Source of the DNA: Candidatus Aenigmatarchaeota archaeon
GTDB lineage: Archaea > Aenigmatarchaeota > Aenigmatarchaeia > GW2011-AR5
Length of the DNA: 15,043 nucleotides
Assembly: GCA_016198645.1 (NCBI GenBank)
Contig: JACQIE010000019.1
Coordinates: 1-15,043 of the forward strand
Reading direction: 5' to 3'
Shown: in pieces, positions 70 to 14,507 of the stretch
How positions within the stretch are numbered: position 1 is the first letter of the stretch
How the letters are laid out: every line of letters starts with the position of its first letter
Position numbers and translations under genes: made by a program
Notes under the pieces: generated by a model
What the model was told of the DNA's origin: nothing
Seen by the model: only the letters and a program-made list of their open reading frames with translations
Databases searched by the model: none

Positions 70-93
70 ATCAAACGGAATAATCCGGCTTAG

Positions 94-109
94 GAAGCGC
101 GCTTCTTTT
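94..109 (+). terminator. Possible terminator: palindrome plus short T run
   Basis: The 12-base palindrome GAAGCGCGCTTC (94-105) is followed directly by TTTT. A smaller CGGA-ATAA-TCCG hairpin lies just upstream (76-87). It is placed correctly to end the gene stopping at 69. Archaeal termination mostly needs only a U tract, and this one is short, so the call is tentative. Confidence 0.3.
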
Positions 110-124
110 GCAACACGCACGATA

Positions 125-132
125 TTTTAAAG
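125..132 (+). promoter_or_regulatory. TATA-like box of the family 2 glycosyltransferase
   Basis: TTTTAAAG is centred about 26 bases upstream of the ATG at 154. In archaea that distance places transcription start at or next to the start codon, giving a leaderless mRNA. No Shine-Dalgarno motif precedes the ATG, which agrees. Confidence 0.6.
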
Positions 133-153
133 GCTTCGCGGCAATCTACTTTT

Positions 154-2594: not shown

Positions 2595-3540
2595 GCATTG
2601 CATCGAGCTTTCCGAGCACCTGTGCCGGGGTTATCCACTTCACGCACCGCGCGTCTCCGAACTTGCAGTAATTGTCGTTGCATTTCGTGTCGCAGAACTT
2701 CCTGCCGCCGAGGCATACTGCCTTCGGGTTGTGCGGGTTCCATTGCGGCAGGGAAGGGCCGTTAAGGACGATTTGCTTTTTGCCCAGCGCAGCGGCAACG
2801 TGCATCGGGCCGCCGTTGACGGAAATAAATGCGTCGCATTGGCTGATTATGCATATCATTTCGTCCAGCGTAGTCTTTCCCACGAGGTTCGCAACGTCCG
2901 GGACGATTTTTTCTATCTCGCGCGCCTTTTTCATTCCATCTTTGCCGCCCACCAGCACGAAGCGGCATCCGTATTTCTTCGAGGCGGCGCGGATCAGCTC
3001 CGCCCACTTGGCGCCTACCCACGTGCGGCAGAAATTGTCGTCCTTGCCGGCATTTACGGCTATGAACGGGCGCTTCATTTTTTTGCATTTTTCCGGCACC
3101 ATGATTTCCATTTTGTCCGAGCCCTTCACTCCGAGGAGCGCCAGAATATCTTGCTCCAACTGAACCGCGTCGCCCTTTTCTTCCGCCTTGACGTCGTAAA
3201 CGAAAGACAGCGCATTTCTCGGGTTGAGATAACTTGCGGTTTTTTTTGCGCCGATAAGCACTGTCAGCAGCGACGAGAGGCGGGTGTTCGGGAATCCATC
3301 TATTATGACGTCTATTTTCTCCTTCCGTAGCCGGAGAATATTTTTCATTCCGGATACGCCGGTAATCATGACGTCTTCATCGATATACGGGCATTTCCGT
3401 ATCAGGGGCAGGCCGCTTCCTTCGTAACTGTGCACTAAAATTATTTTCGCATCCGGGCAATGCTCCCGCAGGCTCCGCAATGCCGGAATGCCCGTGAGTA
3501 TATCGCCCAGACTGGAGCCTTTTATCACTGCTATTTTCAT
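2584..3540 (-). CDS. Family 9 (heptosyltransferase-like) glycosyltransferase, copy 1
   Basis: A 318-residue GT-B glycosyltransferase of CAZy family 9. The N terminus MKIAVIKGSSLGDIL matches the family's opening strand and glycine loop. The donor-binding region near residues 239-263 (SVNGGPMHVAAALGK, then LNGPS) is its hallmark. The C-terminal Cys cluster (C283, C287, C292, C299) also occurs in bacterial heptosyltransferases. The usual bacterial donor is ADP-heptose; the donor here is unknown. The start at 3540 is fixed by alignment with copy 2 and by GGGG five bases upstream. The frame stays open back to a TTG at 3597, but those codons are repeat-derived. It probably shares an operon with copy 2 upstream, separated by one copy of the palindromic repeat. 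Its 3' end overlaps the convergent flippase gene. Confidence 0.9.
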   Translation of the reverse strand: MKIAVIKGSSLGDILTGIPALRSLREHCPDAKIILVHSYEGSGLPLIRKCPYIDEDVMITGVSGMKNILRLRKEKIDVIIDGFPNTRLSSLLTVLIGAKKTASYLNPRNALSFVYDVKAEEKGDAVQLEQDILALLGVKGSDKMEIMVPEKCKKMKRPFIAVNAGKDDNFCRTWVGAKWAELIRAASKKYGCRFVLVGGKDGMKKAREIEKIVPDVANLVGKTTLDEMICIISQCDAFISVNGGPMHVAAALGKKQIVLNGPSLPQWNPHNPKAVCLGGRKFCDTKCNDNYCKFGDARCVKWITPAQVLGKLDAMLTR

Positions 3541-3636
3541 AATATCCCCTTTTTGCCGTACCAGACTGACGTACGATGCGTATGACGGCAAAGCCAAGCC
3601 GTGCGTCTAACAGCTTTCAAGTCGATGCCACATTAT
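3541..3636 (-). repeat. Palindromic leader repeat, copy A, with RBS
   Basis: This lies between the two family 9 genes. On the minus strand it begins ATAATGTGGCATCGACTTG and ends in GGGGATATT directly before the ATG at 3540. Bases 3552-3559 (TTTGCCGT) pair with 3585-3592 (ACGGCAAA); inside that loop TACG-ATG-CGTA (3572-3582) is another small palindrome. Bases 3601-3624 match 14405-14428 of copy D at 21 of 24 positions, so the two are clearly related. Confidence 0.75.
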
Positions 3637-3664
3637 CTGATTTTTATCTCGCTGCAATTTTTAT
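3637..3664 (-). other. Possible decayed copy of a family 9 gene start
   Basis: On the minus strand this segment, which overlaps the last bases of GT9 copy 2, begins ATAAAAATTGCAGCG and continues with ATAAAA. With one two-base gap it matches the start of GT9 copy 1 (ATGAAAATAGCAGTGATAAAA) at about 19 of 24 positions. Its first bases overlap the TAA stop of copy 2. A single G-to-A change would turn an ancestral ATGA stop/start overlap into the present ATAA. The similarity is short, so this rests partly on the parallel case at 14492-14507. Confidence 0.4.
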
Positions 3665-4644
3665 ACCATCCTTTCCAGCTGACTTGCGGCTTCTTCCACT
3701 GTTATCTCGTCCGGCGACGGATGATTTTTGCAATACCGACCGTAAAGCTCGCACTTCGTGCAGTCGCTGCCGCGCCACAGCCATGCCGAATAGCGGTCAA
3801 GCGGAGCCTTCCTTCTCGGGTCAGTGGGGCCGAATATGGAAAGAACCGGTGTGCCAACAGCTGCGGCGACGTGCATGAGCCCGGAATCGCCGCACACTAG
3901 CAGCGAGCACTCGCGGAGCACGGCGGCGGCTTCCTTCAGCGATGTTTTACCGGCAAGATTATACACGTTTCTCCCTTCCATGCCCTTGCTGCCGAGACAG
4001 ACGACTTTCCAGCCTTTCGTTTCGGCTATGGCTGCCATGCGCTGGTAATTTTCCGCAGCCCAATCTCTGGAAGCGGAAGACTGGCCGGGATTGCCGCCTG
4101 ACAATGACATAGCGATGAGCTTCCTGCCTGCTGCGTCGCGGACGAGGTCACGCGCATATTGCATATCATCATCGCCTATGTGCATGTTCATGAGAGTTCC
4201 GCAGGCTTCTTTCGTGAAATAAACAAGCATGTCAAGATAATACTGGATTTCATGTTTCACTCTTTCGTACTTCACGGTCTTTGTGTGCGCGAAGCCCTCC
4301 CAACCGCGGGCGAAGCCGACCCTGTCGGGAATAGCGCACAGCCATGCGAACACACCGGCAAGCCATGATTTATCCAGAACGAAGCACACGTCAAAACGCT
4401 CGGAGCGCATCTTTTTCAGCAGTTTCAGCAGCTTTATTTTCTGGCGTAGCGAGCCAAAAATGGAGTTCTGGTCGAACGCGATTATCCTGTTTATGTCGGC
4501 GTTGCCGCGAATCGCGTCCAGCGACCACTTTCCCGTGACGTAAACTATTTCGGCGTCCGGAAACGTGTTGCGAAGGCCGCGCAAAAAGGGCGTGGTCATA
4601 AGCACGTCCCCGATTGCGCCGCTCTTTATCACTGCTATCTTCAT
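3661..4644 (-). CDS. Family 9 (heptosyltransferase-like) glycosyltransferase, copy 2
   Basis: A 327-residue GT-B enzyme of CAZy family 9, clearly related to the neighbouring copy. It opens MKIAVIKSGAIGDVLMTTPFL. It carries the family's donor-site signature at about 252-276: GDSGLMHVAAAVGTP, then FGPTDPRR. It ends with a Cys group (C295, C298, C305). It should transfer a sugar from a nucleotide donor in the cytoplasm to the growing lipid-linked glycan. Two adjacent ATGs precede it (4647, 4644). I prefer 4644 because it gives the same five-base spacing from GGGG as copy 1 and aligns with its start. The frame is open upstream to a TTG at 4755 and includes an ATG at 4737, so a 31-residue extension encoded by the repeats is formally possible. 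This is probably the first gene of a two-gene operon driven from a TATA-like box at 4785-4792. Confidence 0.91.
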   Translation of the reverse strand: MKIAVIKSGAIGDVLMTTPFLRGLRNTFPDAEIVYVTGKWSLDAIRGNADINRIIAFDQNSIFGSLRQKIKLLKLLKKMRSERFDVCFVLDKSWLAGVFAWLCAIPDRVGFARGWEGFAHTKTVKYERVKHEIQYYLDMLVYFTKEACGTLMNMHIGDDDMQYARDLVRDAAGRKLIAMSLSGGNPGQSSASRDWAAENYQRMAAIAETKGWKVVCLGSKGMEGRNVYNLAGKTSLKEAAAVLRECSLLVCGDSGLMHVAAAVGTPVLSIFGPTDPRRKAPLDRYSAWLWRGSDCTKCELYGRYCKNHPSPDEITVEEAASQLERMV

Positions 4645-4645
4645 C

Positions 4646-4740
4646 ATATCCCCTTGTTCACTTCGTTCACAAGTCGATGCCATATTATGCTCGTTCTCCC
4701 TTGCTCGCGAGTCGTATCCACACTCCGTGTGTTGCATCTT
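4646..4740 (-). repeat. Palindromic leader repeat, copy B (two tandem modules)
   Basis: Two modules in the leader of GT9 copy 2. The gene-proximal one (4646-4688) contains CAAGTCGATGCCATATTAT at 4670-4688 (+ strand), identical over 19 bases to 13002-13020. Its outer TTGT/ACAA arms pair, and GGGG sits just before the start codons. The distal module (4689-4740) contains GTCGTATCC and the hairpin CACAC-TCC-GTGTG (4719-4731), which has a GGA loop on the minus strand. The whole stretch is open in frame with the downstream gene. Confidence 0.75.
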
Positions 4741-4741
4741 A

Positions 4742-4766
4742 TAATTATGTTGCAATTATGCATCAT
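4742..4766 (-). other. Possible decayed original start of GT9 copy 2
   Basis: On the minus strand this segment starts ATGATG and then shows GCA and ATAA blocks in the same order as the real gene start at 4647 (ATGATGAAGATAGCAGTGATAA). The sequence similarity alone is weak. Its position adds support: the ATG at 4763 lies 26 bases from the centre of a TATA-like box, exactly where a leaderless start would be. Confidence 0.3.
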
Positions 4767-4784
4767 CAGTATCTTGCAGAAAAT

Positions 4785-4792
4785 GATTTAAG
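4785..4792 (-). promoter_or_regulatory. TATA-like box upstream of the GT9 pair
   Basis: CTTAAATC on the minus strand would place transcription start near 4763. The present start codon of GT9 copy 2 is about 120 bases further on, so the mRNA would carry a long leader containing both copy B hairpins. This contrasts with the leaderless genes elsewhere in the window. Confidence 0.4.
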
Positions 4793-4828
4793 AGGCGAAA
4801 AGAACGAAGACGGGCTTGCAGGCAGTCT

Positions 4829-5118
4829 TTATAGCGGAAGTCCCAACTGCCGGAATCCCAGTTGAGCTAACAGCGGATAGTGGATTTCTTCTATCGGGCG
4901 ATTGGTTGCCAGTGTTGCAATACCAGCACCTTCTGTTTCCATATCCGCCCGTTTGTGCGAAATAGACGGTTCGTATCCCAATTTTGCTAATACGATGGCG
5001 AGCACTGCGGTGGTTGGGTAGCCATCATGCCCATATAGTCAGCTGGCGCGTGGATTCTAAAACCATTCCGTAGTGCTCTTCTAGCCTCTTCGCCGATTTT
5101 TAGCATATAGGTAGGCAT
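4829..5118 (-). pseudogene. Frameshifted small gene of unknown function
   Basis: An ATG at 5118 opens a frame (MPTYMLKIGEEARRALRNGF...) that runs 43 codons and then stops. Shifting frame near 5030, at the ATATGGGCAT stretch, continues a protein-like sequence (GHDGYPTTAVLAIVLAKLGY...) to a TAA at 4829. Joined, they would give about 95 residues. Composition and continuity across the shift support one broken gene rather than two. A sequencing error or programmed frameshift could also explain it. I do not recognise the family. An A/T-rich box at 5147-5156 lies about 33 bases upstream of the ATG. It sits head to head with the SDR gene at 5272, and apart from that promoter I see nothing else between them. 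Confidence 0.55.
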
Positions 5119-5146
5119 TTCATCACAACACAACTATCGCAGATAG

Positions 5147-5156
5147 CTATTTATTG
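5147..5156 (-). promoter_or_regulatory. TATA-like box of the broken small gene
   Basis: AATAAATAGC on the minus strand is centred about 33 bases from the ATG at 5118, implying a leader of only a few bases. An ATG at 5123 is closer but opens only a seven-codon frame. Confidence 0.35.
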
Positions 5157-5239
5157 CCGGCAGGCGTGCTTGCGGCGTTCTTGACATAGATATGCGGGAA
5201 AATAGGTTTTAATATGTTCAACAGAATTAGACTGAAGGG

Positions 5240-5249
5240 CATAAACTAA
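5240..5249 (+). promoter_or_regulatory. Weak TATA-like box of the first SDR gene
   Basis: CATAAACTAA is centred about 27 bases upstream of ATG 5272, matching the leaderless spacing seen elsewhere. It is a poor match to a TATA consensus. TTTTAATA at about 5210-5217 is a stronger box but would leave a leader of roughly 33 bases. The hexamer ACTAAG occurs twice just upstream of the start. Confidence 0.35.
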
Positions 5250-5271
5250 GAGTATAGACTAAGGTTTTACA

Positions 5272-6228
5272 ATGACTGTGATGATAACAGGCGGCTGCGG
5301 GTTCATCGGCTCGCACCTCGTAGACGCGCTCGCGGAAAAAGGCTACGATATGGAGATAATCGGGCTGAAATGCGACATGCAGAACATAAAGCAGCACGCC
5401 AATAGCGTAAAGTTCCGACGCATTGACATCCAGGACAGGAAAGCCGTGCTTGGCGCGATAAGCAACGACACGGAGGCGATTTTGCATCTAGCTGCCTTAA
5501 TAAACGTGGACGAGTCCATAGACACGCCCGAACCTTTCTGGAACGTGAACGTTCTCGGGACGTTCAACATGCTCGAAGCCGCGAGGCAGAAGAACATAAA
5601 AAAGCTCGTTTTCATGGGCACGTGTGAGGTTTACGGGAACGTGCCAACGGGTAAAGCGGACGAAAACCACGCAACGAACCCGCTTTCGCCTTATGCGGCC
5701 AGTAAATTCGCCGCAGAACGCTACTTGCAGTCGTACGCGACGACTTACGGCGACAAGCCGAACGTCGTGATGCTCCGCGGCTTCAACCAGTACGGGCCGC
5801 GACAGAACTCGGGCGCGCGCGGGGCAGTGATTGCGCGATTCGTTAACAACACCTTGGACGGCAAGAAAATGAAGATAAACGGCAACGGAGAGCAGACACG
5901 CGATTACGTGTACGTGAAAGACACGGTGAAAGGCATAGTCGCGGCACTGGAGAAGAGCGTCAAGAGCGGCGAGATAATAAATCTCGCCAGCGAGAAAGAC
6001 GTTTCAATAAAGAGCATTGCCGAGAAGATAGCAAAGATTTCCGGCAAGAGCGCAAGCGAAGCGATAGAATACGGGCCCGGGAGGCCGGGCGAGCTTATGC
6101 GCAGCATAGGCTCTTCGGGGAAGGCGAAAAATCTATTGGGCTGGACGCCAAGCGTGAGCATAGACGACGGACTGCGAAAAACGTACGACTGGTACCGCGA
6201 GAACCGCGGCGGGTATTTCATGCGGTGA
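5272..6228 (+). CDS. Sugar-nucleotide epimerase/dehydratase (extended SDR)
   Basis: A 318-residue extended short-chain dehydrogenase. The N terminus MTVMITGGCGFIGSHLV holds the GGxGFIG NAD-binding loop (7-13). The catalytic Tyr-x-x-x-Lys is Y141/K145 within SPYAASK, preceded by a TCEVYG active-site strand. FNQYGPRQN and RDYVYVKD are substrate-domain motifs, and the C terminus ends with the family's GWTP...GLRKTYDWY segment. It should act in the cytoplasm on a UDP-, dTDP- or GDP-hexose. The strand before the Tyr reads T-C-E rather than the T-D-E of dTDP-glucose 4,6-dehydratases, so epimerase or decarboxylase chemistry is as likely as dehydration. The gene stands alone between a broken small gene and small unknown genes. 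The start matches the family's usual N terminus. Confidence 0.9.
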   Translation: MTVMITGGCGFIGSHLVDALAEKGYDMEIIGLKCDMQNIKQHANSVKFRRIDIQDRKAVLGAISNDTEAILHLAALINVDESIDTPEPFWNVNVLGTFNMLEAARQKNIKKLVFMGTCEVYGNVPTGKADENHATNPLSPYAASKFAAERYLQSYATTYGDKPNVVMLRGFNQYGPRQNSGARGAVIARFVNNTLDGKKMKINGNGEQTRDYVYVKDTVKGIVAALEKSVKSGEIINLASEKDVSIKSIAEKIAKISGKSASEAIEYGPGRPGELMRSIGSSGKAKNLLGWTPSVSIDDGLRKTYDWYRENRGGYFMR

Positions 6229-6310
6229 ATTTTCGGACGCGGTAGAATACCCGTTCAGTGCCCCGCGTACCATGGCAGATTTCCATACGCGATTAAGTTT
6301 TCAAATTACG

Positions 6311-6318
6311 CTTAAAAA
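6311..6318 (+). promoter_or_regulatory. TATA-like box of the 117-residue unknown gene
   Basis: CTTAAAAA is centred 25-26 bases upstream of ATG 6340, with no Shine-Dalgarno motif between them, as for a leaderless transcript. Confidence 0.6.
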
Positions 6319-6339
6319 CTTCCAATTCCATAAATTCTT

Positions 6340-6693
6340 ATGGTGTATTCCTATGGACAAGTGAAATCCACGTTCATTAAAGCCAAGATTAAGGGCAGAG
6401 GTTGGAAAAGCAGGCAATATGTGGATGAACTTATATCAATAGAAAGGGCGGCTTTGGGGCATATGGGCGGCGGCTGGTCTACCGGGATGTTATTGAATCA
6501 GCTGGAAGAAAGATATCCGAAAGAGTGGAAAGCAATCCATATGGAGCTGGTTCCGGGAGAATATAAGAAACGAACGAAATCAGAAAATGCAAAAGAGGAG
6601 GAAGAACGCAGAGAAATGGAAGAATTTGAGAAGCAGGAGCGCGCAGAACAAAAGAAACTGAAGAAAGAATGGCTTTCAATGGGCGGCAAATAA
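6340..6693 (+). CDS. Unknown 117-residue protein with charged C-terminal helix
   Basis: I do not recognise this family. The first ~70 residues look folded, with aromatic and hydrophobic positions and the run YVDELISIERAALGHMGGGW (about 28-47). From about residue 75 to 110 the chain is almost entirely Glu, Lys and Arg and should form a long charged helix or coiled coil. There is no signal peptide or membrane segment, so it is probably cytoplasmic. A well-placed TATA-like box supports expression from ATG 6340. The DNA is more A/T-rich than the flanking glycan genes, as is the Fic gene beyond, so both may have come with an accessory segment. Confidence 0.65.
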   Translation: MVYSYGQVKSTFIKAKIKGRGWKSRQYVDELISIERAALGHMGGGWSTGMLLNQLEERYPKEWKAIHMELVPGEYKKRTKSENAKEEEERREMEEFEKQERAEQKKLKKEWLSMGGK

Positions 6694-6699
6694 TAGGTA

Positions 6700-6861
6700 T
6701 CAGACAACCGAAGGAGCATACATGTTGGAAACAGTTCTCGTCCTGGGAATCTTGATTAAATCAACCCAATCGGGTTTCTGTTCTGGCCGATTTTTGCCGG
6801 GTTTCTTCTTCGTATTCTTGCAGGCTGCCCCTGCCCAGAAAATCTTCCTTTCGTCGGGCAT
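6700..6861 (-). CDS. Possible 53-residue basic protein, maybe a gene remnant
   Basis: A short minus-strand frame starting MPDERKIFWAG and ending SNMYAPSVV. It contains DWVDLIKIPR and a Lys-rich middle, a composition that looks more protein-like than the other frames here. It stops 7 bases from the convergent end of the 117-residue gene, which is tidy placement. The frame stays open upstream without an ATG to about 6922, and another frame from a GTG at 6974 overlaps it. It may therefore be the 3' part of a frameshifted gene. No well-spaced promoter is visible. Function unknown. Confidence 0.3.
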   Translation of the reverse strand: MPDERKIFWAGAACKNTKKKPGKNRPEQKPDWVDLIKIPRTRTVSNMYAPSVV

Positions 6862-6966
6862 TTCAAGCCACCTTTCCTCAATATTCCCATTATCCTGCAG
6901 TATTCCTTTCTTTCTGAAAGTATAAGATTGCTATCTGCGATTTCTTCGTAGGGGCGATGTTCAGAC

Positions 6967-7008
6967 GTAGTCACCTATTACGCATAATTTTAAATATGTA
7001 GTCACCTA
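6967..7008 (+). promoter_or_regulatory. Fic promoter: TATA-like box between two 11-base direct repeats
   Basis: GTAGTCACCTA occurs at 6967-6977 and again at 6998-7008, 31 bases apart (about three helical turns). Between them TTTAAATA (6988-6995) is centred 26 bases upstream of ATG 7018. A dimeric repressor on the two copies would cover the TATA box and the transcription start. Each copy is an imperfect TAG-N4-CTA palindrome. Confidence 0.6.
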
Positions 7009-7017
7009 CATTATAAT

Positions 7018-7944
7018 ATGCATATAGAGAAAAGGCGTAATGGAAAGAAAAATAAGTATTATTTGGCGCATACGTTCCGTGACGGCGCCAAAGTAAGAAA
7101 ACTACGCGTTTATCTTGGTGCGGATGGAAACGCAATAAAAAAGGGAAGAAGTAGGGCGGAACAAATACTCAAGGAGAGAATATCGGCATACAAAATAATC
7201 GCAGACCCCTTCCGGCAAGTGCTCACTACAAAGGAAATAAAGTCTCTGGAAGCAAAAGACGATATATCCGTAAAGCATCTCAACAAAGACGACTGGAAGA
7301 TATTCACGGAGTCCTTTGTTTACGACACGAATGCCATAGAAGGCTCGTCTGTCACATTCACGGAAGTAAAGGACATTCTGGGAAAGCAGAAATGGCCACA
7401 GGAAAAGGAAAAGTGGGAGATATCCGAGACCTATGGACTAAGGGACGCTGTTAATCACGTGAGAAACACTAAAGACCATTTGTCTCTGGAACTCGTGAAA
7501 GAGCTTCATAAACTAACATTTAAAAATTCAAAGTCGTTCGCAGGGGAATTCCGGAAGTCCGGTCAGGAAGTTGTCGTCGTGGACGGCACGGGGAAAATAA
7601 TTCATAGGGGAGCCCCTTCCGTGATGGTGCCGGGACTGCTCAAAGATTTGGTGGCGTGGTATAGAAAGAATAAAAGCAAATATCCGCCAATCGTTCTGGC
7701 GGCCGTGGTTCACAACCAATTTGAAAACATACATCCGTTTGCCGACGGAAACGGTCGCGTTGGAAGGTTGCTGCTTAACAATGTATTGCTCAAGCACAAC
7801 AAGCCGCCTGTGAACATAGAACTGAAAAATCGCCGAGAATATTACGCTGCGTTGTGGGAATATGAAAACAACGGGAATATCCGGCCCATGATAGAGCTTA
7901 TTCTGAAAGAATATAGAAATCTGAAGAAGTTGTTGAATAGGTGA
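7018..7944 (+). CDS. Fic-domain protein with internal inhibitory motif
   Basis: A 308-residue Fic protein. The active-site loop HPFADGNGRVGR is at 239-250 and fits the HxFx(D/E)GNGRxxR consensus of enzymes that AMPylate target proteins with ATP. Upstream, T104-N-A-I-E108-G109 matches the inhibitory helix motif (S/T)xxxE(G/N), so this is a class II Fic that restrains itself. Residues 1-55 are basic (KYYLAHTFRDG...KVRKLRVYLG) and look like a small beta-rich module with a following helix; DNA or RNA binding is possible but unproven. Transcription is probably leaderless from the TATA box at 6988-6995, between direct repeats that look like operators. The gene is A/T-richer than the glycan genes and looks accessory. 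The target protein is unknown. Confidence 0.93.
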   Translation: MHIEKRRNGKKNKYYLAHTFRDGAKVRKLRVYLGADGNAIKKGRSRAEQILKERISAYKIIADPFRQVLTTKEIKSLEAKDDISVKHLNKDDWKIFTESFVYDTNAIEGSSVTFTEVKDILGKQKWPQEKEKWEISETYGLRDAVNHVRNTKDHLSLELVKELHKLTFKNSKSFAGEFRKSGQEVVVVDGTGKIIHRGAPSVMVPGLLKDLVAWYRKNKSKYPPIVLAAVVHNQFENIHPFADGNGRVGRLLLNNVLLKHNKPPVNIELKNRREYYAALWEYENNGNIRPMIELILKEYRNLKKLLNR

Positions 7945-7990
7945 CACAAAATTCGTGAATGTAGCCACCCGTCGCAATGCATTGAATGGG

Positions 7991-7999
7991 TTTTTATCC
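7991..7999 (+). promoter_or_regulatory. TATA-like box of the 53-residue gene after fic
   Basis: TTTTTATCC is centred 25 bases upstream of ATG 8020. The perfect palindrome CAATGCATTG (7975-7984) lies just before it and could be a regulator site. The gene therefore seems to have its own promoter despite being 75 bases downstream of fic. Confidence 0.5.
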
Positions 8000-8019
8000 T
8001 ATCGGCGAGATTGATAATA

Positions 8020-8181
8020 ATGAAAATCACTGTGGATACCGCCAAATATGCAGCTAGAGTAGTTCATACACAGGGGCGGGAAGGCATGACGCTTACGGAG
8101 TATTTTGCGTGGTCATACAGGCAAGCACAACAGAGAGAACCGGAGCTGCCGAAATACTGGGACGGCAGAATAATAAAGTGA
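8020..8181 (+). CDS. Small 53-residue protein of unknown function
   Basis: Starts MKITVDTAKYAARVVHTQG and ends PELPKYWDGRIIK. It has no membrane segment or signal peptide. The N-terminal half is probably a short strand and helix, the middle (TLTEYFAWSYRQAQQREPE) an amphipathic helix. The TATA-like box at the leaderless distance and normal codon use support a real gene. It follows fic on the same strand; a role as a Fic partner is conceivable, but this Fic already carries its own inhibitory motif and nothing else points that way. I do not recognise the family. Confidence 0.6.
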   Translation: MKITVDTAKYAARVVHTQGREGMTLTEYFAWSYRQAQQREPELPKYWDGRIIK

Positions 8182-8195
8182 CACGCAGGAACTAC

Positions 8196-8206
8196 TTTTT
8201 TCCTTT
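8196..8206 (+). terminator. T-rich stretch, possible archaeal terminator
   Basis: Six T residues followed by CC and four more T (within 8196-8207), 15 bases after the stop of the 53-residue gene. Archaeal polymerase can stop on U tracts alone. There is no hairpin. Confidence 0.3.
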
Positions 8207-8256
8207 TCTATGAAGTTTGCGCGTCTTCTGTTTGCGTTGGCTTTCAAGCGAATTTC

Positions 8257-8385
8257 TTATAAGCCCGCTTCTTTGATTCCGTATAAATTCTCAAGAGCAC
8301 GACGTTCTACATGAAACGTCCCGGCTTCCAGCATCTGCGATACCGCATAACTCTGCCCTTCTATGTGGTAAGCGGCTTTAAACAT
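8257..8385 (-). CDS. Possible 42-residue ORF downstream of the family 4 glycosyltransferase
   Basis: An ATG at 8385 overlaps the last 8 bases of the glycosyltransferase gene. The frame reads MFKAAYHIEGQSYAVSQMLE... and ends at a TAA at 8257. GGAAAG lies a few bases before the ATG. The overlap would suit a coupled small gene, but 42 codons is short and nothing is recognisable. It could equally be readthrough noise or a remnant. The rest of 8182-8256 shows only the T-rich stretch. Confidence 0.25.
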   Translation of the reverse strand: MFKAAYHIEGQSYAVSQMLEAGTFHVERRALENLYGIKEAGL

Positions 8386-9442
8386 TCTTTCCACCTATGA
8401 CATCCCTGTATAGTTCTTCGTACTTCTTCGCAAGAATCTTCCAATCATAATTCTTTACGGCTTTTGCACGGCACGCCCCACGCATGTCGTCCAGCGTCGC
8501 CTTTTCCTTGGCGAGCCTGTTTATCAGCGCTGCGGCTTTTGTTGGGTCCTGCTCTATCAGAAAACCCACGCGATGGTCAACAACGTCAGGCACGCCGCCG
8601 ACTTTCGTGGCGATGACGGGCAAGCCGGAGCTTAGCGCTTCCACGAGCACCGTGGGCATTCCTTCGGAACGGGACGTCAGGAGAAAGCAGTCGGCAGCGG
8701 AATAATATTTCTTCGCATCTTCGTTGCCCATTTTCCCGAGCTTTATCGCGTTCTTTGCGTTCATGCTTTTCAGCGGCTCGGCTTCGCTTATTCCGACAAG
8801 GAGGAAGTTCACATCGGGGCATTTTTCTATTATTGACGCGAGCATGCCCGGGCCCTTTATCTCATCCGGCCGCGCGACCGTGAGCATCGTAAGGCGGTCA
8901 TACAGGCGCAGCGTGCCGCGGATTTCTTTTCTTGCGTTCTCGTCTCTTACGAAACGCGCGGTGTCCACGCCGTTCGGTATTATCTCTATTTCACGCACGC
9001 CCAGCTTTTCATAGACGTCTTTGATGGCAGAAGCAAGAGCCACGCATTTGTCCGCAAGCTTTCCGGTTTTCGCTTCCTTGTCCAGCACGCCGCCGAAGGT
9101 GTAGACTATTTTCTTACGAGTGAGCTTGGCGGCTACGAACGGGAGATAAGAATCGGCGTAAAAGAAGCCATGGACGATATCATAGCGGCGGAAAAGTATG
9201 TTTAATGCCGCGAAAAGCGAGAAGAAAAATATCATTGAAAGATAACGCAAGTGGCGCAGCGGCATCCAAATGTAAGGCATCTTCCGCATAGTCGTGCCCT
9301 CCGGGAACGAAGCGTCGCCTTTGTTGGTGTATATGTCTACGTCATGCCCGAGGTCCACGAGTTCGCGCGCAAGATTCTTTGCGATGTTTTCAGTCCCGCC
9401 CTCGCGGACGCCGGCAAGGAAATGGACCATTGCGATTCTCAT
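8378..9442 (-). CDS. Family 4 glycosyltransferase
   Basis: A 354-residue GT-B enzyme. Residues 10-20 (AGVREGGTENI) match the acceptor-side glycine loop of family 4. In the donor domain are R191 and K196 (ARPDEIKGPG) for phosphate binding and the E-x7-E signature E260/E268 (SRSEGMPTVLVEALSSGLP), which binds the donor sugar and ribose with retention. A hydrophobic stretch at about 67-83 probably makes it a monotopic membrane enzyme. It should extend the lipid-linked glycan on the cytoplasmic side. The start ATG overlaps the stop of the deacetylase-like gene in ATGA (9439-9442), so it is translated by coupling. No further confident gene follows in this operon. Confidence 0.93.
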   Translation of the reverse strand: MRIAMVHFLAGVREGGTENIAKNLARELVDLGHDVDIYTNKGDASFPEGTTMRKMPYIWMPLRHLRYLSMIFFFSLFAALNILFRRYDIVHGFFYADSYLPFVAAKLTRKKIVYTFGGVLDKEAKTGKLADKCVALASAIKDVYEKLGVREIEIIPNGVDTARFVRDENARKEIRGTLRLYDRLTMLTVARPDEIKGPGMLASIIEKCPDVNFLLVGISEAEPLKSMNAKNAIKLGKMGNEDAKKYYSAADCFLLTSRSEGMPTVLVEALSSGLPVIATKVGGVPDVVDHRVGFLIEQDPTKAAALINRLAKEKATLDDMRGACRAKAVKNYDWKILAKKYEELYRDVIGGKNV

Positions 9443-10293
9443 GCGTTCACCGGCTTCAGCTTCGCGAATGCTTCGGACGCAGTCATGCTCGCGAAATCAT
9501 GCTGTGCCATATAATCCACGAAATCGCTCCAGTACCTGTGCATCTTTGTATTTATCAAAAATTCCCAGTGATGGTTTGCCATTATAAAGACGTGCGACGA
9601 GTCAAACTTTTTGCAGGCGTCCTCGAAGCTCTGTTTTAAGTCCCAAAAGCATGAGAAGAGGTAAGGATTCATCGTTCCGAGCTCTTTGTTGCTTTTGTAT
9701 TGCACGAGCCCGTTGTAGCCGTAAAGGAAATTTCCGCGCACGTGTGAAAGCCCGTATTCTCCCAGAGGGACACTAACTACTGCGTCTTTCAGAGGGCGGA
9801 TGACGTTGCGGAAGATGCGGAAGCCGCTATCGGCGACGGCGCGCCACCCGCTCTTTGAAAGGCGCTCGTGCGGCGGAACGAAAACGCGAACTTTTCGTTT
9901 TGTGGCGCCTTCTACGATTGACTTGCCCCTGGCAAGCATTTCTTTCATTTTAGTATAGTTTGGAGACGAGAAATCGCGTATATCGTGAGAATAACCGTGC
10001 AGACACGGCTCAACGCTTTTTTTCTTCAGCCAAACGGAGACGGCGCTATTTTTTCGGAAATCGTGAAAGCCACTGTTTATTCTGCTCTTCGGTATGAACG
10101 GTTCGTACTCGTAGCCGCGGCGGTAAAACGAGTTGTTTTTGCTGCCTATCCGCGCAGACGTGTCAAGCATCGGGATTACAGAGACGGAAACGTTAAAGCC
10201 GCGGCGGAAAAAAGACGGGCCGTAGATTTTATCAAGCAGCGCGCTGCTCGTGAATGCGTGCGTATCGTCGTCACGGATTATGACGGTCTTCAT
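9439..10293 (-). CDS. Polysaccharide deacetylase-like protein (DUF2334 type)
   Basis: A 284-residue protein with the NodB/CE4-like catalytic layout: an N-terminal Asp cluster (R7-D8-D9-D10), a metal-ligand pair in HGYSHD (H99, H103), an Arg/Pro-rich strand VFVPPHERLS (about 137-146), and NHHWEF (240-245) near the C terminus. This matches the DUF2334 branch of polysaccharide deacetylases. These are predicted metal-dependent enzymes that remove acyl groups from sugars, for example N-acetyl groups. No signal peptide is seen, so it would act in the cytoplasm on a precursor or lipid-linked sugar. It starts a two-gene operon with the family 4 glycosyltransferase. The start lies about 26 bases from a TATA-like box shared with the divergent SDR gene. 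Confidence 0.82.
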   Translation of the reverse strand: MKTVIIRDDDTHAFTSSALLDKIYGPSFFRRGFNVSVSVIPMLDTSARIGSKNNSFYRRGYEYEPFIPKSRINSGFHDFRKNSAVSVWLKKKSVEPCLHGYSHDIRDFSSPNYTKMKEMLARGKSIVEGATKRKVRVFVPPHERLSKSGWRAVADSGFRIFRNVIRPLKDAVVSVPLGEYGLSHVRGNFLYGYNGLVQYKSNKELGTMNPYLFSCFWDLKQSFEDACKKFDSSHVFIMANHHWEFLINTKMHRYWSDFVDYMAQHDFASMTASEAFAKLKPVNA

Positions 10294-10314
10294 GAGAAAC
10301 CTTTCATGGCAGGC

Positions 10315-10322
10315 TTTAAAAA
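10315..10322. promoter_or_regulatory. Shared bidirectional TATA-like box
   Basis: TTTAAAAA (reverse complement TTTTTAAA) is centred near 10318.5. The plus-strand ATG at 10346 is about 27 bases away and the minus-strand ATG at 10293 about 26. No other A/T box of similar quality lies in the 52 bases between the two genes. One element therefore appears to set leaderless starts in both directions. Confidence 0.55.
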
Positions 10323-10345
10323 GTGTTTTTATAGAATGTTATCGT

Positions 10346-11254
10346 ATGGCACGGGTTCTAATCACAGGCGGCAACGGGCTGATAGGCTCGCATCTTGCAG
10401 AGCGGCTTATAGCGCGGGGCGATGAGGTTGCGCTGCTGGACGTGATTTTTAACTCGAACACGAGGGGCATAAAGTGCGAAAAGATAAATGCCGATGTGCG
10501 TGATGCAAAAGCTGTGGAGAAAGCAGCCGAAGGAAAGGACGTCATCATTCACTTTGCAGCCGTTTCACGGGTCGCGTGGGGGCAGGAGCGGCCGGTAGAG
10601 TGCGTGGAGACGAACAGCATTGGGACAGCCAACGTGCTGGAAGCAGCACGCAAGGCGAACGCCTTTGTATTCATAGGCTCAAGCCGCGAAGTTTACGGCG
10701 AGCCGGAGAAGAACCCCGTGTCCGAGACGGCAAGAAAAGAGCCGGTTTCAATCTACGGCATAACGAAGCTCTCAGGCGAGAAACTGCTCATGGCTTATAG
10801 AAAGTACTTCAAGCTGCGCGGAGCTATATTCCGGTTTTCCAACGTCTACGGCTCGACCCGCGACCTAGAAGAACGCGTCATACCCATATTTATCAGAAAG
10901 GCGCTGAAGAACGAGACGCTAAAACTTAACGGCGGCGCGCAAATTTTAGACTTCACGCACTTGGATGACACGCTGGACGGAATCCTGAGGGCTTACGACA
11001 AGCGCGCTGCTATAGACGGAGAAGACGTGCATTTCGTCACGGGCAGGGGCGCGAGCGTCGCGGAGCTGGCGAAGCTGACAGTAAAAGCGGCGCGCTCTTC
11101 GTCACATATAATCACCGGGCCGGTGAAGAGCTTTGACGTGCAGAAATTCGTGGGCGATAATTCCAAGGCAAAAAAGCTGTTAGGTTGGACTCCTAAAATC
11201 TCGTTGGAAGAAGGGCTGAAGAGGACGGTTGAGCTTTACAGGAAGGCGATGTGA
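10346..11254 (+). CDS. Sugar-nucleotide epimerase (extended SDR), second copy
   Basis: A 302-residue extended SDR. MARVLITGGNGLIGSHLAE carries the GGxGxxG NAD loop (8-14). The active site is S-S-R-E-V-Y-G followed by Y137/K141 in SIYGITK, and RFSNVYGS and LDFTHLDD are substrate-domain motifs. The protein resembles GalE-like NAD-dependent epimerases. A Thr or Ser precedes the catalytic strand, with Arg where dTDP-glucose dehydratases have Asp, so epimerisation is the more likely reaction. I chose ATG 10346, not an in-frame ATG at 10250, because it gives the family-typical N terminus and sits at leaderless distance from the TATA box. The upstream ATG lies inside the divergent deacetylase gene. 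Confidence 0.9.
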   Translation: MARVLITGGNGLIGSHLAERLIARGDEVALLDVIFNSNTRGIKCEKINADVRDAKAVEKAAEGKDVIIHFAAVSRVAWGQERPVECVETNSIGTANVLEAARKANAFVFIGSSREVYGEPEKNPVSETARKEPVSIYGITKLSGEKLLMAYRKYFKLRGAIFRFSNVYGSTRDLEERVIPIFIRKALKNETLKLNGGAQILDFTHLDDTLDGILRAYDKRAAIDGEDVHFVTGRGASVAELAKLTVKAARSSSHIITGPVKSFDVQKFVGDNSKAKKLLGWTPKISLEEGLKRTVELYRKAM

Positions 11255-11322
11255 AGCGCGTAACAGGGCGCTAGTATCAAACGCTATGTATAATTGTGGT
11301 TATTAGACGCATAAATCAAGGC

Positions 11323-11330
11323 TTTATAAA
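11323..11330 (+). promoter_or_regulatory. TATA-like box of the small HExxH membrane protein
   Basis: TTTATAAA is a near-ideal archaeal TATA box, centred 26 bases upstream of ATG 11353. It rules against an upstream in-frame start at 11296, which would lie before the expected transcription start. Confidence 0.65.
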
Positions 11331-11352
11331 GGATGCTGTTCTGATTTTCATT

Positions 11353-11778
11353 ATGGATTTGAATGAGGCAAACCAATATATAAATGAAGCATCAAAGTGG
11401 GTCACTAGAGGTAGCGCAGTTGCCGGGGTTTCCTACGTCATGGCATTGGTCATTGTGGTTGGAAGGCATGCTCTATCCAAGCGAATACAGTCACAGGCAG
11501 AACTGGAGGAATGCGTGGGAGAGGAAAAGGCGAAATTGGGAATGACTGCGTCGGTCATGGCATACCTTCACAGCGATGGCGGCGCATATTGCCGAAAAAA
11601 CGGCAGTGCGTATGAGATGCACGTTGGAGGACGGTTAGGAGCCACACGGTTAGGTGTGAGACACGAGTTATATCATATCCATAAGGGGGATACGGATAAG
11701 CCTTATTCGCCATGGAAATTTAATCTTATTCAAGAACCAAGGGCGGCAGCGTACGGAGCGTTCGGGCTGAAATTTTAG
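11353..11778 (+). CDS. Small membrane-anchored putative zinc metallopeptidase (HExxH)
   Basis: A 141-residue protein. Residues 21-37 (SAVAGVSYVMALVIVVG) form one membrane span, followed by a Lys/Glu-rich linker (about 41-62). The C-terminal part has H104-E105-L106-Y107-H108, the zinc-binding and catalytic motif of gluzincin-type metallopeptidases. A plausible third ligand E128 (QEPRAAAYG) lies 20 residues on, in an E-x-x-A-A context like that of ImmA/IrrE or minigluzincin proteins. It could be a membrane-tethered protease; the substrate is unknown. I saw no recognised family beyond these motifs. The start is set by the TATA box. It lies between glycan genes but is transcribed alone, ending 20 bases from the convergent aminotransferase gene. 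Confidence 0.72.
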   Translation: MDLNEANQYINEASKWVTRGSAVAGVSYVMALVIVVGRHALSKRIQSQAELEECVGEEKAKLGMTASVMAYLHSDGGAYCRKNGSAYEMHVGGRLGATRLGVRHELYHIHKGDTDKPYSPWKFNLIQEPRAAAYGAFGLKF

Positions 11779-11798
11779 TGTATGGTCGCGCGACGCTT

Positions 11799-12875
11799 TC
11801 ATTTCACAAACGCATTGACTTCCCTACACACCCGTAAAACTTCTTCATCCGTCAGTTCGGGAAACATCGGCAATGAGAGTATCTTCGTTGCATTTTCCTC
11901 GGAACGAGGGTAAGAGCCTTTAATCATGGAAAAGGCGCCCTGTCTATGGATAGGGACGGGATAATGGACTTTCGTGCCGATGCCTTTTTTCTTCAGATGC
12001 TCCGCCAGCGCGTCCCTGCCCTTTGCAGCGATAACGTACAAATGATAAGCGTGTTTTCCGCCTTCCTTCTCGCGAGGCACATCCACGCCCTGCAAATTTT
12101 TATTATACAGGCGCGCTATCTCACGTCTCCTCTCCACCCAGCCGTTCAGGCGCTTTAACTTTACTCTTAAAATGGCTGCTTGCATCTCGTCCAGCCGCGA
12201 GTTGTAACCGAAGAATTTACTGTCATACGTGCCTTTCTGCCCGTAGGCGCGAAGCATTTTTAGTTTTTCTGCAAACGCCGCGTCATTCGTCGTGATTGCA
12301 CCGCCGTCGCCGTACGCGCCCAGATTCTTCGTCGGATAAAACGAGAAGCATCCCGTGTTCGCAGCGCCAACGTGCTTTCCTTTGTACGTCGCGCCGTGCG
12401 CCTGGGCGCAGTCTTCTACTATCTTCACGCCGTGTTTTTTCGCGAGGGTGTTTATCCTGTCCATGTCGCACGGCTGCCCGTAAAGATGGACGGGAATTAT
12501 GATTTTCGTTTTTTTCGTTATCGCGTTTTCCAGTTTTTTCACGTCAATGTTATAAAATTCGTCGCAGTCCACGAGCACGGGCACCGCGCTCACGGCGAGG
12601 ACAGCCATAACTGTTGGCGACGCTGTGTTAGCTACTGTAACGACTTCATCGCCGCTTCCGACGCCGGAAGCGCGCAGCGAGAGTATCAGAGCGTCCGTTC
12701 CCGACGCCACGGAAACGCAATGCTTTGCGCCGACGAAGCGGGCAAACTCCTCTTCAAACTTCGCCACGTTGTCGCCGAGGCAGAAGACGCCGCTTTCCAT
12801 GACAGATAAAACGGCATCATCCAGCTCCTTTTTCAGCGAAGAGTACTGGCGCCTAAGCTCGAATTGCGGAATCAT
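11799..12875 (-). CDS. DegT/DnrJ/EryC1 aminotransferase, probably FdtB/QdtB-like
   Basis: A 358-residue PLP-dependent sugar aminotransferase. ASGTDAL at 58-64 binds the PLP phosphate, D155 in VEDCAQAHGA contacts the pyridine nitrogen, and K183 in SFYPTKNLGAYGDGG forms the internal aldimine. The C-terminal HAYHLYVI and GIGTKVHYPVPIH motifs are typical of the family. Next to a FdtA-type 3,4-ketoisomerase, the likely reaction is transamination at C3 of dTDP-3-keto-6-deoxyhexose, giving dTDP-Fuc3N or dTDP-Qui3N; FdtB and QdtB are the named relatives. I chose ATG 12875 because MIPQFELRRQY is the usual N terminus; GGGG lies nine bases upstream. No acetyltransferase (FdtC/QdtC) follows in this window. 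Confidence 0.92.
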   Translation of the reverse strand: MIPQFELRRQYSSLKKELDDAVLSVMESGVFCLGDNVAKFEEEFARFVGAKHCVSVASGTDALILSLRASGVGSGDEVVTVANTASPTVMAVLAVSAVPVLVDCDEFYNIDVKKLENAITKKTKIIIPVHLYGQPCDMDRINTLAKKHGVKIVEDCAQAHGATYKGKHVGAANTGCFSFYPTKNLGAYGDGGAITTNDAAFAEKLKMLRAYGQKGTYDSKFFGYNSRLDEMQAAILRVKLKRLNGWVERRREIARLYNKNLQGVDVPREKEGGKHAYHLYVIAAKGRDALAEHLKKKGIGTKVHYPVPIHRQGAFSMIKGSYPRSEENATKILSLPMFPELTDEEVLRVCREVNAFVK

Positions 12876-12880
12876 TATTA

Positions 12881-12946
12881 CATACCCCTGCATTCTGTGG
12901 ATGCATCGTATCCATACCCCACAGCTTCGCTGTGTCGTATCCCATG
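12881..12946 (-). repeat. Palindromic leader repeat, copy C2 (two hairpins)
   Basis: In the leader of the aminotransferase gene. CACAGC (12920-12925) pairs with GCTGTG (12929-12934) around a three-base loop that reads GAA on the minus strand. A second module follows on the minus strand: GGATACGA, a TGCAT/ATGCA hairpin, then GGGGTATG. CTGTGG (12895-12900) can also pair with CCACAG (12919-12924), which competes with the first hairpin. The GTCGTATCCCAT flank is shared with copy D. Confidence 0.72.
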
Positions 12947-12985
12947 TTACGTCTTATTTCGGATTTCATTATGATCTCTTATGTA
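12947..12985 (-). pseudogene. Remnant of a second FdtA C-terminal tail
   Basis: Read on the minus strand this encodes YIRDHNEIRNKT and a TAA stop. The intact FdtA ends YIRDYGEIRHEE, so 7 of 12 residues agree. At DNA level 12960-12987 matches 13030-13057 at about 23 of 28 positions, with TCTCTTATGTAAT identical. The remnant lies between repeat copies C1 and C2, 70 bases from the real tail, with no upstream part of the gene. Confidence 0.7.
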
Positions 12986-13020
12986 ATATCCCCTTGCTTC
13001 GCAAGTCGATGCCATATTAT
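12985..13020 (-). repeat. Palindromic leader repeat, copy C1
   Basis: On the minus strand it runs from ATAATATGGCATCGAC through the mini-hairpin TTGC-GAA-GCAA to GGGGATATT. Bases 13002-13020 are identical to 4670-4688. Its first bases overlap the TAA stop of FdtA (13017-13019). The core GCGAAGC is a known unusually stable DNA mini-hairpin sequence. Confidence 0.78.
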
Positions 13021-13412
13021 TCTTCATGACGAATTTCACCATAGTCTCTTATGTAATCTTTCTCGTCGTATAAATGTGAACATAAGACAAGAACGACTGC
13101 GTCACGGGAGAACTCCGTCAGTTCAACCCAGATACGCGGCGGCACGTAAACGCCTTCCGACGGCGATGCGAGTTTTTTCTTCTCCTTCTTTTTGCCGTTG
13201 TCTAGCGTTATAGTAAACGAGCCGTTCAGGCACAGGAACGCCTGCTCGCACATTTTGTGTGCATGGCTGCCGCGCGTTGCGCCTTTCTTCATTGCGTAAA
13301 GATAGAAAACGCGTTTTATCTGAAAGGGAACGTCCTTACCGCTTTCTACGGCAGACAATATCCCCCGGTCGTCTTCCCTGCGCGCTACCGTGAAAAAAGA
13401 CCATTCAGCCAT
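13017..13412 (-). CDS. fdtA: dTDP-6-deoxy-hexulose 3,4-ketoisomerase (FdtA/WxcM-like cupin)
   Basis: A 131-residue one-domain cupin, the usual length for FdtA/QdtA. Hallmarks are Y37 in RVFYLYA, the active-site histidine pair H50/H52 in RGSHAHK, GVYVPPRIWVEL (87-98), and the C-terminal LYDEKDYIRDY (114-124). The family isomerises dTDP-4-keto-6-deoxyglucose to the 3-keto form, as the galactose isomer (FdtA) or glucose isomer (QdtA, Tyl1a); which one cannot be decided here. The product is the substrate for the aminotransferase downstream. The start overlaps the preceding SDR gene by 8 bases (13405-13412), implying coupled translation. A decayed second copy of its C-terminal tail lies downstream. 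Confidence 0.9.
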   Translation of the reverse strand: MAEWSFFTVARREDDRGILSAVESGKDVPFQIKRVFYLYAMKKGATRGSHAHKMCEQAFLCLNGSFTITLDNGKKKEKKKLASPSEGVYVPPRIWVELTEFSRDAVVLVLCSHLYDEKDYIRDYGEIRHEE

Positions 13413-14367
13413 TCAACCACTCCCTATTTTCGCGGCACCAAGCCACGGTTTTGCGGATGCCTTCGCTTAGCGGCGTAGTCGCCGACCAGCCAAGGACGCG
13501 TTTCGCTTTCGTCGCGTCAGGCACGCGCCTTGGTATATCCTCGTATGAGGCGCCGTAGAGCTTTTTTGTATCAACGTATTCAACTCCCAAATCTTCGCGC
13601 CCTGTTTCTTTCAGTATTATTTTTACCAGCTCATTAAGATTCGTTTCCTTCATGCTGCCGAGATTGAATGCCTCGCCGCTCGCACTCTCTGCAGCTGCTA
13701 TCGTGCCGCTGATTGCGTCTTCCACGTACGTAAAGCAGCGCGTCGGCTTGCCTCCGTCGTAAATAATGGGAGGCTTCCCGTTCAACACACGATGAATGGC
13801 GGCAGGCACGACAAAGATAGGAGCCTGGCGGGGGCCGTAAGCGTTGAAGTAGCGGACTATCGTTGCGGGAAAGCCGTACTTCTCGGAGGCAGAGAAAATC
13901 ATGTGCTCGCACATGCTTTTGCTTGTGCTGTAAGTCCAGCGCGCGACGGATGTCGCGCCCAGAACGCGGTCGTCTTCCTCTTTCCACGGCACTTTCGGGT
14001 TCTTGCCGAAGATTTCGCTGGTGCTGGTGAACAAAAGCTTTGCATTTTCCTTCGTAGCAGCGGCTACGACATTGCGCGTTCCTATTATGTTGACGTCTAT
14101 TGTGCCCAATGGGTCGTTCACGTAGTTTTTCACGCCCACAACGGCGGAGAGATGGAAAATCGTATCAGCGCCTTTGCATGCCTTCAGAACGTCCTGCTCC
14201 TTCGTTACGTCGCCCCGGATGACGTTGACGTCCTTAAGATGCGCTATGCTGCTTTTTTTCGCGTCTGCCTTGTCGAAGACTGTGACATTCATTCCTTTTT
14301 TCAGCAGCGCTTCGACCAAGTGTGACCCAATAAATCCGCAGCCGCCTGTGACTACGACGTTTTTCAT
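13405..14367 (-). CDS. Sugar-nucleotide epimerase/decarboxylase-like SDR
   Basis: A 320-residue extended SDR. MKNVVVTGGCGFIGSHLVE gives the NAD loop. The active-site strand is TSTSEIFGKNPKVPW, the catalytic pair is Y146/K150 in RWTYSTSK, and RYFNAYGPRQAP and RCFTYVEDA are substrate motifs. The T-S-E-(I/V)-(F/Y)-G and R-W-x-Y patterns resemble UDP-glucuronate decarboxylases and related epimerases more than dTDP-glucose 4,6-dehydratase, which has T-D-E. Its place between the nucleotidyltransferase and FdtA would suit a 4,6-dehydratase, so sequence and context disagree. The start ATG 14367 has GGGG five bases upstream, supplied by repeat copy D. Its first 16 bases are duplicated at 14492-14507. 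Confidence 0.9.
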   Translation of the reverse strand: MKNVVVTGGCGFIGSHLVEALLKKGMNVTVFDKADAKKSSIAHLKDVNVIRGDVTKEQDVLKACKGADTIFHLSAVVGVKNYVNDPLGTIDVNIIGTRNVVAAATKENAKLLFTSTSEIFGKNPKVPWKEEDDRVLGATSVARWTYSTSKSMCEHMIFSASEKYGFPATIVRYFNAYGPRQAPIFVVPAAIHRVLNGKPPIIYDGGKPTRCFTYVEDAISGTIAAAESASGEAFNLGSMKETNLNELVKIILKETGREDLGVEYVDTKKLYGASYEDIPRRVPDATKAKRVLGWSATTPLSEGIRKTVAWCRENREWLNG

Positions 14368-14507
14368 AATACCCCTCGCTCGCGTAAGCAATTTGACGCA
14401 CGAAGTGCGTCAGACAGCTTCCAAGTCGTATCCCATATTATTATGTCCTCTTCGCTCATTACATTCGCAAGTGCGTATCCCTTATTTCTATCTACAACGT
14501 TTTTCAT
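14364..14507 (-). other. 47-codon frame bridging two genes through repeat copy D
   Basis: The frame starts at an ATG (14507) that overlaps the nucleotidyltransferase stop as ATGA. It begins MKNVV, the same five residues as the downstream SDR, runs without a stop through the repeat (WDTTWKLSDALRAS...), and ends in a TGA overlapping the SDR start codon, again as ATGA. It looks like a remnant gene start fused to repeat sequence rather than a functional protein. It could still keep ribosomes moving across the insertion. Confidence 0.45.
14368..14487 (-). repeat. Palindromic leader repeat, copy D, flanked by direct repeats
   Basis: The strongest palindrome is TGACGCAC (14394-14401), loop GAA, GTGCGTCA (14405-14412), an 8-base perfect stem. 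CAAGTCGTATCCCATATTAT (14422-14441) is the conserved flank. A second, decayed module (GCAAGTGCGTATCCCTTATTTC region, 14466-14487) follows. On the minus strand the copy ends in GGGGTATT before ATG 14367. CTACGACGTTTTTCAT (14352-14367) and CTACAACGTTTTTCAT (14492-14507) flank it, 15 of 16 bases identical. Confidence 0.78.

Follow-up and report, generated by a model that had tools for sequence, protein, structure and literature searches.

The closest described counterparts of the hairpin repeat family analyzed here, in a 15,043-nucleotide stretch of DNA from a Candidatus Aenigmatarchaeota archaeon (contig JACQIE010000019.1, positions 1 to 15,043; hereafter, the window) and in the genome to which it belongs, are several kinds of small dispersed palindromes. 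Repetitive extragenic palindromes (REP, REPIN) with their RAYT transposases, the GTAG superfamily, are short, present in high copy and conserved at one end, and the CGTC repeats, which include the Rickettsia palindromic elements RPE-4 and RPE-6, are short hairpins with tails, some of them inside genes, defined by a CGTC tetranucleotide at one end and a CCA tail and not reported there to have a dedicated transposase (PMC3733652). The GC clusters of yeast mitochondria are small palindromes without an enzyme of their own that turn over rapidly and merge and shuffle into new units, as that study describes them (PMC4478555), and the hairpin-forming elements of sponge mitochondria have scattered through compact genomes by independent invasions (PMC2800124).

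The window family resembles each of these in the traits just named and coincides with none. Unlike REP and REPIN as portrayed there, it lacks a common GTAG tag (GTAG is seen solely as the paired 3' arm of the CTAC outer-stem type) and sits at gene starts. Unlike the CGTC repeats, it has a co-varying outer stem, a purine loop, an archaeal host and a leader position; its frames read TGGGATACGAC..GGGGTAT, and CGTC appears, on the opposite strand, only where GC opens the inner stem, so that the likeness to Rickettsia palindromic elements drawn in an earlier, sequence-only reading of the window holds for style and not for the tag. The likeness to the mitochondrial elements is one of kind, not of sequence or descent: hairpins have expanded unequally and in scattered fashion among related compact genomes, whereas the sense placement at start codons sets the window family apart, the sponge elements being intergenic without such a leader pattern. 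Archaeal bulge-helix-bulge introns, in which a 4-bp helix lies between two bulges on opposite strands and is flanked by further helices, share the presence of some copies in tRNA introns, but the geometry and the strand of the window copies do not fit them. The family appears to work like the REP-type and mitochondrial hairpin elements and lacks the tags that define the GTAG and CGTC repeats. No description of it surfaced in the open-licence literature searched, and Rfam gave no match in the window at gathering score.

On balance, we favor the view that these repeats are small, non-autonomous mobile palindromes, specific to lineages of Aenigmatarchaeota, with a 3' G-run able to serve as a ribosome-binding site. 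The family is assigned to this phylum of the DPANN archaea since the second genome rich in copies, G006, is Candidatus Aenigmatarchaeota JACPRW01. The window genome itself (G000) comprises 655,388 bases on 96 contigs and is 70% complete; G001 and G002 are its congeners, and the comparison set includes one genome per species.

A hairpin with two changing stems

Read in the direction of the downstream gene, a copy consists of the lead-in TANNATGG, an outer stem of 3-4 bp, a purine internal loop, an inner hairpin, GG and the partner arm, the 3' arm terminating in GGGG(T)AT. Within the lead-in, TA is conserved across nearly all the frames listed for three genomes, even though it has no pairing partner in the 3' flank. 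The internal loop opposes GA or GCA to GG, usually GA to GG; the bases after TANNATGGGATAC are GA in 22/31 and GCA in 9/31 frames of the window genome, and GA in 12/16 frames of G006, so the purine loop is common but not invariant. The inner stem begins with C and ends in G around a loop that is often GAA, GGA or AAA (mostly GNA), and otherwise varies freely; it is sometimes self-nested, larger copies containing modules AAGCTGTTGGAC..GTCATACAGC, at times one inside another, and tandem arrays of copies occur. The G-run, which the search rule required, is present also in copies away from gene starts (e.g., L019 and L025).

The sequence-only reading had noticed that the inner stem changes while remaining paired. 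This is the case, and the same holds for the outer stem, which it had missed along with the conserved lead-in, the self-nesting and the tRNA-intron copies. Among 54 candidate frames, picked by TGG followed by 2-4 bases and CGAY, with only GGG and the best inner stem required on the 3' side and the outer arm left free, the outer arms match in 42 and change together (ATAC/GTAT in 24, CTAC/GTAG in 7, ATC/GAT in 9 and ATGC/GCAT in 2); four of the 12 unmatched frames resemble chance matches in coding sequence, and in two the 3' partner chosen was distant and wrong. In an alignment of 18 rows, chosen by pairing, 99.4% of the cells pair, compared with 19-60% when slid, and double changes occupy 26 cells against 6.5 in shuffles. 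Two other counts, that of double-changed pairs (4 vs 3.2) and that of additional pair types (9 vs 9.3), do not rise above shuffles, and three pairs are invariant.

Does this pairing reflect selection on structure, as the sequence-only reading proposed? The proposal is plausible but unproven, because a hairpin would also stay paired if one of its arms were copied from the other. Direct evidence for folding as RNA is weak. Folds anchored on the frames of 54 copies (34 of the 44 frames of the window genome and 20 of the 24 of G006) contain seven single G.T mismatches and one A.C, but this difference is offset by the other two strand tests. When all flanked mismatches in the window genome are counted, a tally swamped by chance pairings, A.C reaches 45 and G.T 33, against 30.9 and 42.0 in shuffles; and the gain from G.U pairing on the sense strand (-1.2 vs -1.9 shuffled in the window genome, -0.95 vs -1.0 in G006) does not go beyond composition, in copies picked by a rule that admits G.T and requires GA and GGG, so that their loop counts arise partly by construction.

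Amplification and placement of the copies

Of 31 simple copies listed, 18 belonging to the ATAC and CTAC types served to build a covariance model, R1, the CATCGAC type being left out. The model matches 32 places in the window genome, and together with both exact patterns the matches amount to 57 places on 30 contigs in 655 kb, at least two of which (C61:5433 and C23:1502) look like coding coincidences. The amplified palindromic family posited from the window is therefore real, and neither of the outcomes named beforehand as fatal to it, a lack of further copies or stems that cease to pair, was encountered genome-wide. Simple patterns concur: TGGGATACGAY has 26 exact matches, compared with none for its reverse; TAATATGGCATCGAC has 17 at up to two mismatches (13 exact) vs 3 for the reversed pattern; and, within the window, the 15-base frame GTCGATGCCATATTA has three matches at up to three mismatches against 0.29 expected, a number reached in 0/200 shuffles.

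Across the phylum, R1 finds matches at E 0.01 in 17/156 genomes, in scans whose filters lose weak matches: 32 in the window genome, 27 in G006, 10 in G026, 5 in G011, 4 in G016 and one in each of nine family members; the matches in G059, G063 and G084, outside the order, are weak, and we read them as chance. The family is thus expanded in 3/156 genomes (G000, G006 and G026, the last from a different family of the same order), close relatives having few copies or none, and 6/19 genomes of the window's own family lack a match. The ATC type is still more restricted, with 13 exact matches in the window genome and none in 18 other genomes of its family, where G012 and G002 come closest, each having a single match that contains one mismatch. 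One strict pattern, which reaches only the commonest form, yielded 11 stretches in a collection of 84,980 genomes: nine in JACPRW01, one in JACQIH01 and one apparent chance match. Outside Aenigmatarchaeota there is a single match (Pelagibacterales, L101), whose inner stem is poor. Viral contigs gave 1 and 4 stretches with exact patterns, in which neither inspection by eye nor folding showed the hairpin structure.

The position at gene junctions inferred from the window is borne out, and the G-run lies where a ribosome-binding site belongs. The loci of the window genome, fetched by matches with a script that merged some array copies, contain 66 five-prime frames, of which 52 have a matching 3' frame; nine of these are followed by another copy and 43 are terminal. 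A sense start codon of an open reading frame (ORF) of at least 80 amino acids lies no more than 37 nt past the 3' end in 30 of the 43, and in 24 between 2 nt inside and 6 nt past that end; sense starts follow 13/22 copies in G006 and 0/2 in G026. The tie to glycan genes does not survive, the window simply being a glycan cluster: across the genome, copies are often followed by housekeeping genes, among them those for ribosomal proteins (by orthology) and for what we take, from sequence, to be RNA polymerase subunit D, aRF1, threonyl-tRNA synthetase and Fen1.

Orthologous junctions were compared, as the sequence-only reading had called for. Copies precede L4, L2, Rnp1, L24, L5, S14 and S8 in the window genome and are absent from all seven junctions in both congeners; among 14 to 18 genomes per junction (the window genome included, G005 omitted at L4), the only other copies are those of G012 at Rnp1 and of G006 at L24. 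A frame-like match before L4 of G005 is an artefact: the stretch does not include that gene start, and the match falls within coding sequence at a distance of 9.4 kb. The congener spacers often carry GGTGA or GTGATAATC just before the start, which appears to fit a Shine-Dalgarno site by the archaeal anti-Shine-Dalgarno sequence. No archaeal 16S rRNA gene, from which the host's own version could be read, was found in the assembly of the window genome; with the archaeal sequence, the 3' ends of copies pair at -4.9 to -7.4 kcal/mol, compared with -8.4 for GGTGATAATC.

Copies also reside in tRNA introns of several genomes, mostly antisense, and are absent or different in orthologous tRNAs:

tRNA-Ala(UGC) intron, window genome: canonical site, antisense; called Cys by ARAGORN, exons matching tRNA-Ala of G002
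tRNA-Ala(CGC) intron, window genome: canonical site, antisense, two copies in tandem
G006: matching tRNA junction, antisense; by sequence match, ARAGORN having found no gene
tRNA-Gly(CCC) introns of G009 and G014: canonical site, antisense
tRNA-Ala(CGC) intron of G016: canonical site, antisense, degenerate copy
tRNA-Arg(GCG) introns of G001 and, diverged, of G002: canonical site, sense

For tRNA-Ala(UGC), G010 has no intron and the introns of G002 and G008 are unrelated. The intron of tRNA-Arg(GCG) (L216, L217, L218) differs within the single genus: in G001 it contains the element and in G002 a diverged form, whereas that of the window genome is shorter and unrelated.

Proposed modes of spread and persistence

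The scenario that we favor would run as follows. The units would spread through an agent that recognizes the lead-in together with the folded foot; sense copies that land just before a start codon would persist because the G-run can replace the native Shine-Dalgarno site, and copies in tRNA introns would persist because the intron is cut out, those elsewhere in the compact genome being purged. Several observations weigh against it. No Y1 transposase (PF01797) was found in G000, G006 or G026, two of which (G000 and G026) are 70-75% complete, and no reverse transcriptase (RVT_1) in G000 or G006; reverse transcriptase, although present in G026, was therefore dismissed as the common agent. Of the terminal inverted repeats and target-site duplication that mark miniature inverted-repeat transposable elements, the former are seen as inverted ends of only 3-4 bp and the latter is not established, the congener boundaries being too diverged to show one. 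Gains are read from absence in relatives, which loss might also explain. Among the 43 terminal copies, 13 lack a qualifying sense start (one precedes S14, which falls short of the 80-residue threshold), and an antisense ORF begins at the opposite side of 13, as it does in 5/22 in G006 and 0/2 in G026; by eye, most of these antisense ORFs are shadow frames, although one in G006 is clearly a real gene. Finally, the leader copies of the sisters G011 and G016 are identical at 83/83 bases, against 226/240 in their 60-base flanks, which hints at function; some copies may have gained one.

The same identity, set beside the 36/41 positions shared by the tRNA-intron copies of G009 and G014, is what one would expect of a structured RNA leader controlling translation or mRNA stability and spread by selection or gene conversion without being mobile itself. 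The sense position at start codons, the ribosomal operon included, and the 7 to 1 excess of G.T in anchored folds point the same way, but the mostly antisense tRNA-intron copies, the arrays, the patchy presence and the lack of a common function among the next genes do not, nor do the G.U gain, no greater than composition predicts, and the broader mismatch count, which ran in the opposite direction; we consider this reading unlikely, if worth keeping in sight. A broader proposal is that of a portable translation-initiation leader, a mobile module that replaces the native Shine-Dalgarno spacer, colonizes tRNA introns, belongs to one of several lineage-specific families turning over in Aenigmatarchaeota and possibly spreads through RNA by way of the splicing machinery; we offer it as a speculation with rather low odds. 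Could the hairpins instead be passive products of replication that drift while quasi-palindrome correction keeps them paired, the paired changes reflecting mutation and not selection? Near-perfect pairing in stems of any sequence and the two pair-level counts that do not rise above shuffles would follow naturally, but the purine loop and GA/GA mismatches remain uncorrected and dispersal is unexplained, so that this appears improbable.

Two other mechanisms seem very improbable, and about equally so. Under the one, the repeat is a bulge-helix-bulge mini-intron whose 4-bp outer stem the tRNA splicing endonuclease would cut in both mRNAs and tRNAs; copies do occupy the canonical tRNA intron site, and a 4-bp helix flanked by unpaired G-rich stretches is there, yet the outer helix does not stand above shuffled flanks (2.41 vs 2.25 in the window genome, 1.05 vs 1.28 in G006, 1.40 vs 1.20 in G026), both strands of the inner loop are unpaired and most tRNA-intron copies are antisense. 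Under the other, a REP-type repeat is moved by an IS200/IS605-like (RAYT) transposase, in keeping with a short folded repeat that has its conserved foot and lead-in on one side; however, PF01797 occurs in 8/21 genomes and in none of the three expanded ones, and the family has no common GTAG or CGTC tag. The sense-side placement at start codons, throughout the ribosomal-protein operon of the window genome, together with the tRNA introns offers a route to testing how a mobile hairpin becomes a leader and ribosome-binding site, and a handle on the remodeling of gene junctions and tRNA introns in DPANN genomes.

Window copies and further hairpins

All the minus-strand copies originally named in the window are present. 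The repeat placed at 12881-12946 is in fact two adjoining copies; the 19 identical bases at 4670-4688 and 13002-13020 can be read off directly; and the stems listed exist, with CACAC/GTGTG lying in a degenerate piece outside any complete frame. The copies and the genes beside them (two family-9 glycosyltransferases, a DegT aminotransferase, an FdtA-like protein and an epimerase) are:

2584-3540, minus: family-9 glycosyltransferase gene, start codon 3538-3540, where the next copy ends
3541-3636, minus: complete copy, ATC/GAT type, hairpin containing nested modules; frame matched at 3621-3635 with one mismatch; missed by R1 even at E up to 1
3661-4647, minus: family-9 glycosyltransferase gene, into which the next copy leads
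4646-4688, minus: complete copy, ATC/GAT type, GA/GA tandem mismatch and GAA loop; frame match, R1 21.4 bits as 4641-4688
4689 to about 4740, minus: degenerate neighbor copy, CACACGGAGTGTG hairpin and GGATACGAC frame without matching 3' frame; from sequence
12873-12875, minus: start (ATGATT) of the DegT-family aminotransferase gene, or else an ATG further upstream
12881-12913, minus: complete copy adjoining that gene; from sequence
12909-12950, minus: complete copy, ATAC/GTAT type, inner stem ACAGC/GCTGT, GAA loop; R1 49.1 bits
12982-13020, minus: complete copy, ATC/GAT type; frame match, R1 24.6 bits
13017-13412: FdtA-like gene directly preceding copy 12982-13020, its stop being the TAA of TAATATGG
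13405-14367, minus: epimerase gene, start codon at the end of the next copy
14364-14441, minus: complete copy, ATAC/GTAT type, module AAGCTGTCTGACGCAC..GTGCGTCA; R1 42.2 bits
14442-14487, minus: degenerate neighbor copy, GGGATACGCAC frame, hairpin decayed; from sequence

Several window copies are crossed by ORFs, and elsewhere, at L043 (C95, about 1499-1560), a copy shares the reading frame of the next, oxidoreductase-like gene and yields the N-terminus MGYDSRSEGYYYDIVIVGGGPGGS, although the start codon could be the ATG of TAATATGGG; such cases matter for gene calls. At L003 (about 1460-1580), a near-repeat of the gene start flanks the copy on both sides (AATGACACTCTGGTTCTG / AATGACATTCTGGTTCTG), which may record an insertion by duplication.

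A second family of hairpins, whose stems differ but remain paired and whose tail is TTAATCAARAA, occurs in gene leaders and also within tRNA genes, the D-arm region among the sites, of G008, G013, G005, G001 and others (L267, L271, L276, L277, L285-L294; L188 in G005), its tail matching 12 times in G008, 8 in G013 and 7 in G005, compared with none for the reversed control. The L2 and S14 leaders of G004, G015, G017 and G018 (L189, L186, L187, L190) contain other nested hairpins ending in AAGG-ATTGRTATG-like sequences, by eye apparently further families. On the plus strand of the window, an ORF at 7018-7944 with HPFADGNGR looks, by eye, like a Fic-type protein.

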